From an uncultured Erysipelotrichaceae bacterium (GTDB lineage Bacteria > Bacillota_I > Bacilli_A > Erysipelotrichales > Erysipelotrichaceae), in the NCBI GenBank assembly GCA_945877405.1, contig CAMCSA010000017.1:1-40715 (forward strand): a stretch of 40,715 bases of DNA, in the 5' to 3' direction. Positions within the stretch are counted from its first letter, which is position 1. Each line of letters opens with the position of its first letter. The position numbers and the translations under genes are program-made. The notes beneath the pieces were generated by a model. It was not told where the DNA came from. It saw nothing but the letters and a program-made list of their open reading frames with translations, and did not search any database. Of this stretch, positions 32,326 through 37,659 are shown one piece after another.

Positions 32326-34455
32326 ATGAATATCAGAATCGCACTTGCCGGTAATCCAAACAGTGGAAAAACAACCCTGTTCAATGCATTGACCGGTTCA
32401 AATCAGTACACAGGTAACTGGCCTGGTGTTACGGTAGAAAAAAAGGAAGGAAAACTGAAAGGATATGGAAAGGGAGAAACCACAGTAACTGTTGTGGATC
32501 TGCCTGGTATCTATTCTCTTTCTCCTTATACATTGGAAGAAGTTGTATCTAGAAAATATTTGCTGGAAGAAAAACCGGAAGCAATCGTCAATATTGTGGA
32601 TGGTACGAATCTGGAAAGGAATCTGTATCTGACAACACAGCTCAAGGAAACAGGCATTCCGATGGTGACAGCTGTCAATATGATGGACCTTGTCAGAAAA
32701 AACAAAGAAGAACTCAATCTTGCACAGATGGAAAAGGATCTTGGATGTCCGGTCGTCGAAATCTCTGCCTTAAAAGAAGAAGGCATTGACAGATTGATTG
32801 AAACAGCTGTTTCAGTTGCGAAAAAGGCAGAACCATCTCATCGACTCGTCTTTGATGAAAAACTGGAATCCGTTATTTCTGCGATTGAAAAGAAACTGGG
32901 CGGCTTGCTCCCACAGAATAATCCTGACTGGTACGCCATCAAGGTGTTTGAGCGGGATGAAAAGGTTGTGGAACAGTTGTGTCTGACAGCTTCACTGAAA
33001 CAGGAGATTGATGCATATATTTCTTCGGTTGAAAAGGAATATGATGATGACAGTGAAAGCATCATCACATCCGCAAGATATCATCAGATTGAGACGATGA
33101 TTCATGACTGTTATGTAAAAAGAAACAGACAGAGTGATTCCATTTCTGATCGGATTGATCGGGTTGTGACAAACAGAATTCTTGCATTACCGATCTTTGC
33201 ACTTGTTATGTTCCTTGTCTATTATGTATCTGTGACAACTGTTGGATCAATCCTGACTGACTTTGTCAACGATACATTGTTTGGTGAATGGATTCTTCCT
33301 TCTGCATCTGCTGCATTGGAATCCATCGGATGTGCGGAATGGTTGAATGGGCTTGTTGTTGAAGGTATTATTGGTGGTGTTGGCGCAGTACTTGGCTTTG
33401 TTCCACAGATCTTTGTCCTCTATCTGTTTCTGGCAGTTCTGGAAGACTGTGGTTACATGGCTAGAATTGCCTTCATCATGGACAGGATTTTCCGTCGATT
33501 CGGGTTATCCGGTAAAAGCTTCATTCCAATGCTGATTGGGACCGGTTGTGGTGTACCTGCCATCATGGCAAGCCGTACCATTGAACAGGACAGAGATCGT
33601 CGTATGACAATCATGACAACAACCTTCATTCCATGTTCCGCAAAGCTTCCGATCATTGCATTGATTGCAGGTGCACTGTTTGATGGTGCTGCCTGGGTAG
33701 CACCAAGTGCATACTTTACCGGCATTGTGGCAATTGTCACTTCCGGTATTATTCTGAAAAAGACAAGACTGTTTGCCGGGGATCCATCTCCATTTGTTAT
33801 GGAACTTCCGGATTATCATATTCCATCTGTTAAGAATGTATTCCACAGTGTATGGGAAAGGGGTTCCTCCTTTGTGAAGAAAGCTGGTACAATCATTCTG
33901 TTATCCACCATTATCGTATGGTTCATGCAGGCATTCGGATTTGAAAACGGTGTATTTACAATGGTGGAAGACATGAATAACAGCATACTGGCAATGGCAG
34001 GCAACTGCATTGCATGGATCTTCACTCCACTTGGATGGGGTGATTGGAAGGCGGCAGCAGCTGCTGTAACAGGACTTGTCGCAAAGGAAAATGTCGTTGG
34101 TACATTCGGTGTCCTTTATGGGTTTGGCGAAGTGGCTGAGGATGGTATGGAACTGTGGGGAACACTGTCCAGTGAATTCACTGCTTTCTCCGGATTCTCC
34201 TTCCTTGTATTCAATTTGTTATGTGCACCATGCTTTGCGGCAATGGGTGCAATCGCAAGAGAAATGAACAGTGCAATGTGGTTCTGGATCGCAATCGGCT
34301 ATCAGACACTGCTTGCCTATGCATGTTCTCTATGCATTTACCAGGTGGGAACCTGGATTACTACAGGTGTATTTACACTCGGTACTGTCATTGCAGGTAT
34401 TGCGATCATCGGATTTATATACCTGTTGATCAGACCTGAAAGAAAGGTGGCATAA
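32326..34455 (+). CDS. feoB: Ferrous iron transporter FeoB
   Basis: A 709-residue inner-membrane Fe2+ transporter. The N-terminal G domain has G1 GNPNSGKT (residues 9-16), G2 T in PGVTVEKKEG, G3 DLPGIYSL and G4 NMMD, followed by a guanine-dissociation-inhibitor-like helical domain (~170-270). The membrane part has the two Gate motifs, including the conserved Cys in IPMLIGTGCGVPAIMASRT and in FIPCSAKLPI. Length and order match standard FeoB. The start follows AGAGGAAAT. The C-terminus abuts (zero-base gap) the gene for a Cys-rich partner. Confidence 0.97.
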   Translation: MNIRIALAGNPNSGKTTLFNALTGSNQYTGNWPGVTVEKKEGKLKGYGKGETTVTVVDLPGIYSLSPYTLEEVVSRKYLLEEKPEAIVNIVDGTNLERNLYLTTQLKETGIPMVTAVNMMDLVRKNKEELNLAQMEKDLGCPVVEISALKEEGIDRLIETAVSVAKKAEPSHRLVFDEKLESVISAIEKKLGGLLPQNNPDWYAIKVFERDEKVVEQLCLTASLKQEIDAYISSVEKEYDDDSESIITSARYHQIETMIHDCYVKRNRQSDSISDRIDRVVTNRILALPIFALVMFLVYYVSVTTVGSILTDFVNDTLFGEWILPSASAALESIGCAEWLNGLVVEGIIGGVGAVLGFVPQIFVLYLFLAVLEDCGYMARIAFIMDRIFRRFGLSGKSFIPMLIGTGCGVPAIMASRTIEQDRDRRMTIMTTTFIPCSAKLPIIALIAGALFDGAAWVAPSAYFTGIVAIVTSGIILKKTRLFAGDPSPFVMELPDYHIPSVKNVFHSVWERGSSFVKKAGTIILLSTIIVWFMQAFGFENGVFTMVEDMNNSILAMAGNCIAWIFTPLGWGDWKAAAAAVTGLVAKENVVGTFGVLYGFGEVAEDGMELWGTLSSEFTAFSGFSFLVFNLLCAPCFAAMGAIAREMNSAMWFWIAIGYQTLLAYACSLCIYQVGTWITTGVFTLGTVIAGIAIIGFIYLLIRPERKVA

Positions 34456-34635
34456 ATGGGAACAATTCTTGTATTACTGGTGATCTGTGCAACTGTTGTA
34501 TGGATCATCCGAAACATGATCAATGATCATAAAAACGGTAAATCCGTCAGCTGTGGATGCAGCTGCAGTCAGTGTCATGGTGGTTGTCATGCCAATCTCA
34601 AAAAAGAAATCGACCGATTACGAAATGCAGGATAA
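34456..34635 (+). CDS. FeoB-associated Cys-rich membrane protein
   Basis: A 59-residue protein: one N-terminal membrane helix (MGTILVLLVICATVVWII), a short basic segment DHKNGKS, then a cluster CGCSCSQCHGGCH (Cys at 33, 35, 37, 40 and 44) and a charged helical tail. This is the family found after feoB in many Bacillota, thought to play the part of FeoC, perhaps binding iron or a cluster. The start codon directly follows the feoB stop. A terminator 40 bp later closes the operon. A paralogue lies at 37071. Confidence 0.93.
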   Translation: MGTILVLLVICATVVWIIRNMINDHKNGKSVSCGCSCSQCHGGCHANLKKEIDRLRNAG

Positions 34636-34675
34636 AAAAATACTGGCATAAAAAATCATTTGTACTCATGCGGAA

Positions 34676-34705
34676 AACTGCAGGAAATCATCTCCTGCGG
34701 TTTTT
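34676..34705 (+). terminator. Terminator of the feo operon
   Basis: AACTGCAGGA (34676-34685) pairs with TCCTGCGGTT (34693-34702), followed by TTT. Confidence 0.88.
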
Positions 34706-34713
34706 CGTTATGC

Positions 34714-34741
34714 TTTACCTGAACTGTATTTGGATTATAAT
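34714..34741 (+). promoter_or_regulatory. Promoter of the LytTR regulator gene, apparently leaderless
   Basis: A perfect -10 TATAAT (34736-34741) with TTTACC (34714-34719) 16 bp upstream. The first good ATG is at 34748, only six bases after the -10, about where transcription should begin. No ribosome binding site is present. Confidence 0.55.
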
Positions 34742-34747
34742 CGTGTT

Positions 34748-35437
34748 ATGCGAAAATTCCGTATTTGTGTGATTGATGACAGTGAAAATGACAGACTCCG
34801 ATTCACAACCCTGCTAAAACAGGTGGATTATCCTGTTGCGATATACTCTTTTTCCTGTGTAAGAGATTTTCTTGATTCCAGGGAAAAGTCAGATATCGTG
34901 TTTCTGGATATCGAATTGAAAGAGGAGGATGGAATCGGTCTCAGAAACAGTGTCAGAAATAATACCAGGTGGATTATTTACATGACTTCGTGGAAGGAAA
35001 GAATGCAAGAGGCATTTTCGTCTAACGTCATTGCTTTTCTGTTGAAACAGGATCCGGATATTGCATTGAAAGAAATGATCAGACGGTTGTTTGATGAATA
35101 TCTCGGCAAAATTGTATCTTTCAGAACAACTGCAGGGATAGTGGATATTCCGGTATCTGAAATCCATATGATCACACGGGAAAACCGGAAACTTTATATT
35201 TATGTTTATAATGAGGAAATTCAGGTGTTTGATCTTACACTCTCAGAACTGATTGAACTTGTCGGAAATGATTTTATCCAGACAGATCGGTCTCGTGCTG
35301 TCAATTACAGGCATGTCATTGGTTTTGAAGGAAATGATTTTGTTCTCGATAATGGAAGACAAGAACGTATCAGCACACGCAGAAAAAAACAGGTCATCCG
35401 CCTGTTTATGGAAAAACGACTGACGTTTGGACATTGA
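34748..35437 (+). CDS. LytTR-family response regulator (AgrA-like)
   Basis: A 229-residue regulator. The receiver domain has IDDSEND, phospho-acceptor Asp57 in IVFLDIELKEEDG, and MTSWKE in the switch region; the usual conserved Lys near residue 105 is present as FLLKQDP. The C-terminal LytTR domain (IVSFRTTAGIVDIPVSEIHMITRENRKLYIY... FIQTDRSRAVNYRHV) is the beta-fold DNA-binding domain of AgrA, ComE and VirR. The ATG at 34748 has no ribosome binding site and coincides with the predicted transcription start, so translation may be leaderless. It is followed by a membrane protein and an AgrC-like kinase, likely one operon. Confidence 0.9.
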   Translation: MRKFRICVIDDSENDRLRFTTLLKQVDYPVAIYSFSCVRDFLDSREKSDIVFLDIELKEEDGIGLRNSVRNNTRWIIYMTSWKERMQEAFSSNVIAFLLKQDPDIALKEMIRRLFDEYLGKIVSFRTTAGIVDIPVSEIHMITRENRKLYIYVYNEEIQVFDLTLSELIELVGNDFIQTDRSRAVNYRHVIGFEGNDFVLDNGRQERISTRRKKQVIRLFMEKRLTFGH

Positions 35438-35455
35438 AACCGTCGTTTGGACATT
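35424..35455 (+). promoter_or_regulatory. Direct repeats, possible LytTR binding site
   Basis: The 12-bp sequence CGTTTGGACATT occurs at 35424-35435 and again at 35444-35455, with starts 20 bp apart, nearly two helical turns. LytTR proteins bind paired 9-bp repeats about 21 bp apart with a central GTT, which both copies contain. The site straddles the end of the regulator gene, upstream of the membrane protein. Confidence 0.45.
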
Positions 35456-35514
35456 CGTGGTTACCAGGAACGGAAAAGACAGATATGATAAAAAGGCGAA
35501 AGGCGGAAAAAAAT

Positions 35515-35970
35515 ATGAGACGCATTAGAACTTTTGTATTCATCTCTGTATCGTTTGTGATCAGCCTGATACTCACATCATTTCTGTTTGATCGTGCAAT
35601 TCTGTTTGTGGCTGAGGATAGTGTTACATTCTGTTATCTGGATATTTTTATTGGATTTTTGACATATCTTGTCACGGATGTAATCTGGTTACTGATTGTT
35701 GGCGGTATGGCTGTCATTGCATATATGAAAAGAAAGAGAACCATTGATGCACTGGATGCGGTTCTGCTCGGTAAAACAACAGTGACAGATATCAGATGGA
35801 CATGGGTGGTGTTGTTGATCATGGCAATTGCCGGTAAATGGATTCCTTTCATCGGAGTGATCAGTGCACTGGCTATACCGTATATATCTGTTATGACAAT
35901 GTATATGGTCATAAGGGGAAAAGCAGATGTTAGAAGCGATTGCGGCATTTCTTCCACTTCTTCTGATTGA
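35515..35970 (+). CDS. Membrane protein of unknown function in the LytTR cluster
   Basis: A 151-residue protein with about four hydrophobic segments (FVFISVSFVISLILTSFLF; YLDIFIGFLTYLVTDVIWLLIVGGMAVIAY; VVLLIMAIAGKWIPFIGVISALAIPYISVMTMYMVI) and a basic loop YMKRKRT. It lies where agrB would be in an agr operon, but the conserved His and Cys of the AgrB peptidase are absent, so it is not an AgrB. The start at 35515 follows AAAGGCGG; other in-frame starts upstream lack this. Its 3' end overlaps the kinase gene by 44 bp. Function unknown. Confidence 0.75.
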   Translation: MRRIRTFVFISVSFVISLILTSFLFDRAILFVAEDSVTFCYLDIFIGFLTYLVTDVIWLLIVGGMAVIAYMKRKRTIDALDAVLLGKTTVTDIRWTWVVLLIMAIAGKWIPFIGVISALAIPYISVMTMYMVIRGKADVRSDCGISSTSSD

Positions 35971-37021
35971 GCGCGGATACAGTGATACCTGTCGGTATAC
36001 CATACCGGCGGGTATTGCCATACTGTTGTTAGCGTGTTTTCTGCAGGATGTTATCCTACAGGCAATTCTTTTTGGAATTGTGATTCTACTGATTCACCAA
36101 AGGGAAACCGGCAATGGAACTGTATCTTTGATGGCGGAAGGAATGATTGTGACAGAACTGCTGATGATTCCATATGTGATTCGGTATTTCATCCCATCGG
36201 TTTCATCCCATCTTTGTGTGTTATGTATAATCATGAAAGCAACTGCGGTTTTCGTTTTACGATATCATAATGAACGGGATGATATCCGTGATCTGCTGGT
36301 GATCAATGGAATATCCATGGGAATTGCAATGCAGGTGGTATACTGCTTTGAAAAGTGGAAATATGTTGTGATCATACCGATGTCGGTTATGTACTGTTTT
36401 TCTGTTTATCTGATGATCCGTGTGATATCACAGCAGAAAGAGGCACAGAAGCTGAAGGAAATCCAGTCTGTACTGGAACTTTCAAGAAATCAGATGGAAC
36501 TGTGGAAAAACATAAGCGAGGAAACAATACAGTTCAGACATGATGTCAGTCATCATATGCATGTTCTGCAGGAACTTGCGGATCAGAATCATATTGCGGA
36601 TATCAGAGAGTATCTGAATGTGGTCGGAAAACATGAGAATACGGAAATCTATTCCTGCGATGCATACCTGGATGCGATATTGAGATATCATATTCATCTG
36701 TATCCGGATATACAATGGAACCTGGATGTTCATTATTCGCATGTAAATAACAGATTCTCCATCGATTTGTGTCTGATCCTTTCGCGTCTTTTTCATGATG
36801 CGGTATGTCAGATGGTTTCAGACAGAAGTGTTGATGTAATAATTCATCAGATGGAAAGCATGGTGCTGGTGAAAGTGGCATATCAGAAAGGGAACAATGA
36901 AGATATGGATCTGGCCTGGCTTGATGATATGTTGAAACCATACCATGGCAATGTTGAAGTGCAGGATGGAGAAAGACATTGCATCATGTTGATGCTTCAG
37001 CTTCCGATGGAAAATGAGTAA
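35927..37021 (+). CDS. AgrC-like sensor with degenerate ATP-binding domain
   Basis: A 364-residue membrane sensor. Residues 1-~165 hold six hydrophobic segments, then a coiled coil (QQKEAQKLKEIQSVLELSRNQ), the H-box FRHDVSHHMHVLQELADQ with His205, and a GHKL-like C-terminus. Normal AgrC kinases have an N-box LLDNAIEA and a glycine motif GxGLxN. Here the N-box reads RLFHDAVCQ (Asn replaced) and the glycine motif is absent (DMDLAWLDDMLKPYHG), while the final strands (GERHCIMLMLQLP) remain. It probably cannot bind ATP and may act as a phosphatase, a scaffold, or the partner of another kinase. AAGGGG precedes the start. Confidence 0.82.
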   Translation: MLEAIAAFLPLLLIERGYSDTCRYTIPAGIAILLLACFLQDVILQAILFGIVILLIHQRETGNGTVSLMAEGMIVTELLMIPYVIRYFIPSVSSHLCVLCIIMKATAVFVLRYHNERDDIRDLLVINGISMGIAMQVVYCFEKWKYVVIIPMSVMYCFSVYLMIRVISQQKEAQKLKEIQSVLELSRNQMELWKNISEETIQFRHDVSHHMHVLQELADQNHIADIREYLNVVGKHENTEIYSCDAYLDAILRYHIHLYPDIQWNLDVHYSHVNNRFSIDLCLILSRLFHDAVCQMVSDRSVDVIIHQMESMVLVKVAYQKGNNEDMDLAWLDDMLKPYHGNVEVQDGERHCIMLMLQLPMENE

Positions 37022-37070
37022 GGTGCATTCGGCTGTGTGTTATGATTTTCTGCAGGGAAAGGAGTTCTGT

Positions 37071-37223
37071 ATGGGAACTGTGATTGTACTGATTGTACTT
37101 GGTATCCTTGTCGGTTTATCTGTGCGTACCATGGTCAAAGATCATCGTAATGGAAGATCGTGTTCGTGTAGATGTAACGGGTGTACAGGATGTTCCTATG
37201 GAAGAAAAGACCATGAAAGCTGA
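37071..37223 (+). CDS. Second FeoB-associated-type Cys-rich membrane protein
   Basis: A 50-residue paralogue of the protein at 34456: one membrane helix MGTVIVLIVLGILVGLSV, the same DHxNG motif, then CSCRCNGCTGC (Cys at 31, 33, 35, 38 and 41). It lacks the charged helical tail. Start after GGAAAGGAG. It lies 49 bp after the AgrC-like gene and overlaps the ASCH frame by 11 bp. This family is almost always next to feoB, so a copy in a signalling operon is unusual and suggests an iron link. Confidence 0.88.
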   Translation: MGTVIVLIVLGILVGLSVRTMVKDHRNGRSCSCRCNGCTGCSYGRKDHES

Positions 37224-37659
37224 GGAAATGTGGAGACAGTACTGTCTTGAAAACGGAATGGATGAAACGATGCCATATTAGGCGTGGCAATTTGGAGGTG
37301 CACCTGACCAGCTGGCGGAACTTGTACTGCAGGGAAAGAAACGGGGTACATCTTCCGCATATGATCTGTATGCACTGGATCCGTCCGAACCAATGCCGAA
37401 AGCCGGGGATTACAGTGTGATTCTGAATTCCTTTGATGAGGCGGTATGTGTGATTCAGACAGTGGAAACAGAAATGATTCCATTCAGCGAAATCAGTGAA
37501 AGACATGCATTACTGGAAGGAGAAGGCGATCTGAGTCTGGCCTGGTGGCGGAAAGTGCATACTGAATTCTTTGAACAGGAATATGAAAACTGTCATCTGA
37601 AGTTTGAGGCGGATACATGTACTGTTCTGTTTGAACAGTTTGAGGTTGTGTATCGATAA
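37213..37659 (+). pseudogene. ASCH-domain protein interrupted by an in-frame TAG
   Basis: From ATG 37213 the frame encodes MKAEEMWRQYCLENGMDETMPY, then TAG at 37279-37281, and continues open for 125 codons: AWQFGGAPDQLAELVLQGKKRGTSSAYDLY... to TAA at 37657. ASCH proteins of this type contain a Y-x-A-W-x-F-G motif, so one residue (probably Glu or Gln) is replaced by amber. The rest is intact, including the GxKxxTxS-like loop (QGKKRGTSSA). ASCH domains are PUA-like and thought to bind RNA. Either a nonsense mutation or read-through. The intact length would be 148 residues. Confidence 0.85.

Follow-up and report, generated by a model that had tools for sequence, protein, structure and literature searches.

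Histidine-kinase sensors that have lost kinase activity are known from only a few cases, namely MaeK, PhyT, Spo0B and ChpT. The CA domain of MaeK from Lactobacillus casei is degenerate and fails to bind nucleotide, and both this domain and Asp54 of its partner MaeR are still required in vivo (PMC5457438). PhyT is a membrane-anchored degenerate kinase that has been shown to pass on phosphate, i.e., to act as a phosphotransferase (PMC5898713), and in ChpT the ATP lid is replaced and the pocket closed (PMC3433190). A literature search for histidine pseudokinases combined with LytTR regulators found none. Here we describe an operon in which this combination is predicted. It lies in a window of 40,715 nucleotides, the whole stretch of DNA that was analyzed, which forms contig C17 in the draft genome (2.1 Mb, completeness 95.6%) of an uncultured Erysipelotrichaceae bacterium.

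The LytTR operon and its surroundings

The feo operon of the window, with the gene order FeoA, FeoA, FeoB, FeoB_associated, ends at 34635 and is followed by an intrinsic terminator (Table 1). Beyond it, the genes for a response regulator, a four-TM membrane protein, a sensor and a second FeoB_associated protein all lie on the + strand, and a + strand terminator scan found no terminator between these four genes and none after the sensor. This confirmed the anatomy described in an earlier note on this DNA: a LytTR regulator, a membrane protein, a degenerate sensor and a Cys-rich tail adjoining feo. An ASCH-domain gene (37213-37659) overlaps the second Cys-rich gene at its end and is interrupted after codon 22 by an in-frame TAG (37279-37281; MPY*AWQFGG); it is either a pseudogene or an assembly error.

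Table 1. Positions of the features of the operon and its borders in the window
Feature	Position	Strand	Basis
FeoB_associated protein, tail of the feo operon	34456..34635	+	PF12669, 51.7 bits
Intrinsic terminator between feo and LytTR operon	34670..34708	+	16-pair stem, -27.3 kcal/mol, z -6.2
Promoter TTTACC-16-TATAAT, +1 at start codon	34714..34741	+	10/12 consensus match; position read from sequence
Response regulator, receiver and LytTR DNA-binding domain	34748..35437	+	PF00072, PF04397
Membrane protein with four TM helices (151 aa), of no known family	35515..35970	+	No Pfam/NCBIfam match above cut-off
Predicted kinase-dead sensor of AgrC/HPK10 type; TM helices at the N-terminus, DHp carrying His205, CA domain degenerate	35927..37021	+	Alignments, AlphaFold2, Foldseek
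Codon of phospho-acceptor His205	36539..36541	+	Present in 15/15 GxG-less sensors
Asp291 codon, in place of the N-box Asn	36797..36799	+	Asn there in 58/58 GxG sensors
Shortened ATP lid; QKGNNEDMDLAW in place of the lid and GxGL of GxG sensors	36890..36925	+	
Second FeoB_associated (PF12669) Cys-rich protein	37071..37223	+	43.7 bits; SD AAGGAG, -8.2 kcal/mol

Both domains of the regulator score above their Pfam cut-offs (PF00072, 33.2 bits; PF04397, 37.8 bits), and its receiver pocket is complete (D10, D11, D54, T80 and K100). The A of its ATG, at 34748, lies 7 nt beyond the last T of the -10 box, so the start codon coincides with the expected +1 of the predicted promoter, as had been noted earlier. 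The assignment of this promoter rests on its position, because the promoter scan gave 10 sites compared to 10.9 in shuffled sequences, i.e., no overall excess. A 5' leader with a ribosome binding site, which would contradict a leaderless start, was sought and no usable one was found: the terminator hairpin caps any leader at 39 nt, and anti-SD pairing at the regulator start amounts to -3.1 kcal/mol, with a GGA 14 nt upstream at an unusable distance, compared to -5.3 to -11.3 kcal/mol at the other tested starts of genes in the window. The predicted leaderless start is of an uncommon but known type: in Firmicutes genomes with leaderless genes, these account for approximately 4% (published survey, PMC3160421). 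Judging from the upstream sequences, leaderlessness does not extend to the whole clade; G047 is one of the relatives whose regulator differs, with a plausible ribosome-binding site, AAGGAAAA, ahead of its start.

The four-TM protein showed no match above cut-off in Pfam or NCBIfam, including AgrB, and it contains no His at all and hence no AgrB His/Cys pair, in line with the earlier description of a membrane protein lacking AgrB residues. No AgrD-like ORF was seen by eye in the ORF list either, and Agr-type quorum sensing was rejected. The AlphaFold2 model of the protein was poor (pLDDT 52) and unfit for a fold search. A profile search of 272 genomes gave convincing relatives only in the window genome and in genome G061, where regulator, four-TM protein and sensor are encoded in the same order. 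The two four-TM proteins share 21% identity. G061 also has a second, stand-alone four-TM copy (L087 4183-4611), located between prs and an amylase-like gene. On the 8.9-kb contig that carries the G061 operon, no Cys-rich gene follows it and no feo lies alongside. Because G061 has the trio without the Cys-rich gene, we regard regulator, four-TM protein and sensor as a three-gene module, with the Cys-rich gene either added to it or merely adjacent.

The second Cys-rich protein scores well above the PF12669 cut-off of 27 bits, and the ATG preceded by AAGGAG is probably its true start. It is 44% identical to the feo-tail protein directly upstream and 42-48% identical to the feo-tail proteins of two congeners. 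PF12669 genes are the usual feo-tail genes, and tandem feo-tail proteins occur, e.g., in Candidatus Stoquefichus. Translation and iron binding of FeoB_associated-type proteins are themselves still open matters (PMC8749426). It is thus probable that this is a second feo-tail gene of the ordinary kind, co-transcribed because of where it lies, and in the simplest reading the LytTR module would sit between two feo-tail genes. FeoB of the window (32326-34455) matches Candidatus Stoquefichus at 64% compared to 55% for the congener Lactimicrobium massiliense, which may mean that the feo operon was acquired horizontally or that the two are different paralogues.

The earlier note had suggested an iron- or membrane-linked signalling unit; for the iron link, adjacency was the one point of support. 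The feo operon is closed by its own terminator, and the nearest homologous operon, that of G061, lacks both a neighbouring feo and a Cys-rich gene. The contigs that carry the remaining decayed LytTR systems had none of the PF12669 matches of the genus. The proposed association of LytTR systems with Cys-rich proteins was thus unseen in G061 and on these contigs, and iron coupling by conserved neighbourhood was rejected. Among 80 feoB loci scanned, a few had a response-regulator match within 7 kb, and none had a LytTR-RR/sensor pair directly after the feoB tail when the coordinates were read. Gene position, and that only, hints weakly at a link between the LytTR operon and iron.

The sensor and its relatives

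The sensor gene is an intact ORF of 364 aa with a strong SD (-8.4 kcal/mol). Standard annotation overlooks it entirely, with no Pfam family matched at E<=0.05, and a profile built from relatives aligns it end to end, with HPK10-like DHp and CA domains. His205 is retained and aligns with the His of 57 of the 58 GxG-bearing sensors described below. The N-box reads HDA instead of DNA (Asp291 for Asn), the GxG box is replaced by NNEDMDLA (MDLA for GxGL), and the ATP lid has collapsed to approximately 10 residues, with most of it lost. The Asn at the G1 position, which is the counterpart in HPK10 kinases of the G1 box of others, is also missing. This bears out the view that the His was kept while the N-box Asn and the glycine motif were lost; alignments that might have restored intact N and G boxes recover neither. 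The phosphatase motif E/DxxT/N is absent (DVSH is found there), and the acidic residue after the His and the Asn at His+4 vary within the clade.

Structure prediction with AlphaFold2, a check that had been proposed in the earlier note, gave a kinase-like CA fold with a collapsed lid, and the DHp-CA core was modelled with a pLDDT of ~90 over most of residues 171-360. The nearest solved structures identified by Foldseek were AgrC (6e95) and DesK. The AgrC CA domain 4bxi aligned to the model over 120 residues (Z 13.6, rmsd 2.5). The Bergerat fold of the CA domain is kept in the model despite the collapsed lid.

No intact AgrC-type/HPK10 kinase was found elsewhere in the 95.6% complete host genome, and a scan of genome contigs using the sensor sequence found no relative. 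Other histidine kinases exist in this genome, with four HisKA-HATPase-receiver hybrids (G000 C5, C24, C29 and C56) and one Hpt. The latter is a single 127-aa protein (L281, G000 C21 28960-29136).

The sensor was compared within a set of 73 GHKL sensors from the family and order that were long enough to judge; they were gathered by similarity, which could slightly favour His-keeping rows. GxG was present in 58 of them, and all 58 had the N-box Asn; the sensor of G048 is an example with intact boxes. Fifteen were classified as decayed by their missing GxG, of which 14 had lost the N-box Asn and one, that of G061, had kept it. The His was present in 15/15. Of the 80 columns, it alone was invariant, the mean top frequency being 0.37. 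Thirteen of the GxG-less sensors belong to the genus of the window, five of these coming from one genome, G058, which is 10%-contaminated; two other genera contributed one each. Every partner regulator retains its phospho-Asp and its Lys. Save for single conservative changes, the acidic pair and T/S are kept as well; one of these changes is a D-to-N in one residue of the acidic pair of the G061 receiver.

In a sensor tree for which the N and G boxes were left out, the GxG-less trait needs at least four changes of state, three of which are forced by well-supported branches; these are counts of changes and not of their direction, and long branches make the exact placement unsure. The GxG-less state was far more clustered on the tree than shuffled labels, and the window sensor paired with that of G061 (SH-aLRT 99). 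Because the same decay arose repeatedly in relatives, the sensor without an ATP site seems to be a functioning, kinase-free design. The new part is this recurrence: with 15 of 73 related sensors lacking GxG, all of them His-keeping, the window case does not stand alone.

Some neighbourhoods of the related systems were also recorded. In four other assemblies, LytTR pairs with GxG-less sensors are followed by members of one homologous secreted-protein family (L081 2527-3192, L084 2670-3356, L085 1546-2244 and L147 2900-3343; 31-46% identity, no Pfam match), which is absent from the operon of the window and is likely the output or signal of these four systems. In G058 (L089, L090), two kinase-dead LytTR pairs are followed by ABC-transporter and membrane genes, in bacteriocin-like loci.

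Candidate mechanism and alternatives

The earlier interpretation stands in one part and falls in another. Absence of normal kinase chemistry is well supported by the sequence comparisons, as three ATP-site features are gone, the loss recurs and no intact HPK10 partner was found; the iron link amounts to adjacency. Most likely, the window sensor is a controller that is kinase-dead and depends on its His, as with MaeK, PhyT, Spo0B or ChpT, here within the AgrC/LytTR class.

Starting from the loss of the ATP site, the invariant His, the intact receiver and the recurrence in relatives, we infer a sensor that would not bind ATP, would function through its His, would obtain phosphate from another source and would be assisted by the four-TM protein. 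We consider it moderately probable that this is a non-canonical two-component system in which the ATP-less sensor acts through His205 on the intact LytTR receiver, with phosphate supplied from elsewhere. The sensor would be a descendant of AgrC/ComD (HPK10) that no longer binds ATP or phosphorylates itself. Its DHp dimer would persist, and His205 would swap phosphate with, or dock on, the receiver of the neighbouring LytTR regulator. A signal would reach the TM part of the sensor, probably together with the four-TM partner, and would set the share of regulator that is phosphorylated at Asp54 and bound to DNA. The phosphate could come from a small phosphodonor or from the receiver of a hybrid kinase, and the four hybrid kinases and the single Hpt of the genome could feed a relay. 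Phosphorylation in trans by a partner of the same family is unlikely, because the search of the genome yielded no intact HPK10 kinase. Against this mechanism, the window sensor lacks the phosphatase motif, and the G061 sister keeps its Asn and has the altered acidic pair in its receiver.

The main rival is allosteric control free of phosphate, in which the sensor or the four-TM protein would hold the regulator at the membrane and release it on a signal, and the regulator would act unphosphorylated. There is precedent, as ComE of S. mutans activates its promoter without its kinase and with the phospho-Asp replaced (PMC12323615), and in LRS pairs a LytTR regulator is encoded together with a membrane inhibitor (PMC6193735), the extra membrane protein here being likewise placed. 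However, the His and the receiver pocket are conserved far better than the rest and would have no clear reason to stay. LRS-type 9-bp direct repeats, 11-13 bp apart, were absent upstream of the -35 box, the best pair agreeing in 6/9 positions and being matched in 218 of 300 shuffles, and LRS autoregulation was rejected. We give phosphate-free control a modest chance of being correct.

It is quite unlikely that ATP-dependent kinase activity persists in the sensor by way of an unusual pocket, or that the sensor works as a heterodimer with an intact kinase. The Bergerat fold of the model, the N-box Asn kept by the G061 sister and the other histidine kinases of the genome are consistent with such activity, but the sensor has lost the Asn, the G1-equivalent Asn, the GxG box and most of its lid, and no intact HPK10 partner for a heterodimer turned up in the nearly complete genome. 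Decay of the gene towards loss, as the in-frame TAG of the neighbouring ASCH gene and the fast sequence divergence across the clade might suggest, is highly improbable given the intact ORF with its strong SD and the fourteen other GxG-less sensors, which are open and His-keeping.

The preferred reading, a His205-dependent sensor fed with phosphate from elsewhere, can be widened to the genus. A genus-wide AgrC-type branch would then have repeatedly dropped ATP binding in favour of membrane signal-gated phosphotransfer or docking for LytTR regulators, fed by other kinases, and a four-TM co-sensor would have joined the window copy together with a Cys-rich protein that binds iron and may inform it of Fe2+ uptake; in this full form we regard it as unlikely. 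The value of the finding lies in the recurrent loss across the genus, not in the iron neighbourhood. A set of this kind in one gut genus, with at least three changes of state on the tree and a His that stays each time the ATP site goes, would imply that evolution can turn a quorum-type kinase into a non-kinase sensor repeatedly, and the GxG-less sensors provide many natural variants for asking what role the His has once ATP binding is gone.

Comparison with known systems

The gene order of the window, with a LytTR regulator followed by a membrane protein, fits the arrangement of the LytTR Regulatory Systems HdrRM and BrsRM (PMC6193735). The window differs from these by its receiver domain and kinase-like sensor and by the lack of direct repeats, and none of its proteins matched DUF3021 or DUF2154. 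AgrC/AgrA and ComD/ComE come closest to the window in fold (6e95, 4bxi) and likewise have a LytTR regulator that carries a receiver. In AgrC and ComD the kinase motifs are intact, in contrast to the window sensor, and the window has no AgrB/AgrD genes. Compared to a canonical HPK10 kinase, the sensor has the DHp His and the Bergerat CA fold and lacks the N-box Asn and GxG.

Judged by its motifs, the sensor shares with MaeK, PhyT and Spo0B a degenerate CA domain combined with a retained active-site His. Spo0B and ChpT are kinase-derived dimeric His phosphotransferases, as suggested here for the window sensor; they act inside known relays and are not described as membrane sensors in the cited papers. 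Spo0B was absent among the matches listed by Foldseek/VIA, which is not evidence against a likeness. PhyT (PhyP) of Sphingomonas melonis resembles the sensor in its membrane anchor, degenerate ATPase domain and His, which is active in PhyT. It is an alphaproteobacterial HRxxN-type kinase that feeds PhyR and has a known single-domain regulator as donor (SdrG), whereas none was found for the window sensor. MaeK/MaeR shares a membrane sensor, a SPOB-type His, a degenerate CA domain lacking the N box, the G box and the lid, and a partner with an intact receiver. MaeK belongs to the CitA/DcuS family, has a Cache sensor and keeps E/DxxT/N, whereas the window sensor is of the AgrC/HPK10 type, with LytTR output and an extra four-TM protein. 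By analogy, MaeK can be taken as the nearest worked example for the window sensor.
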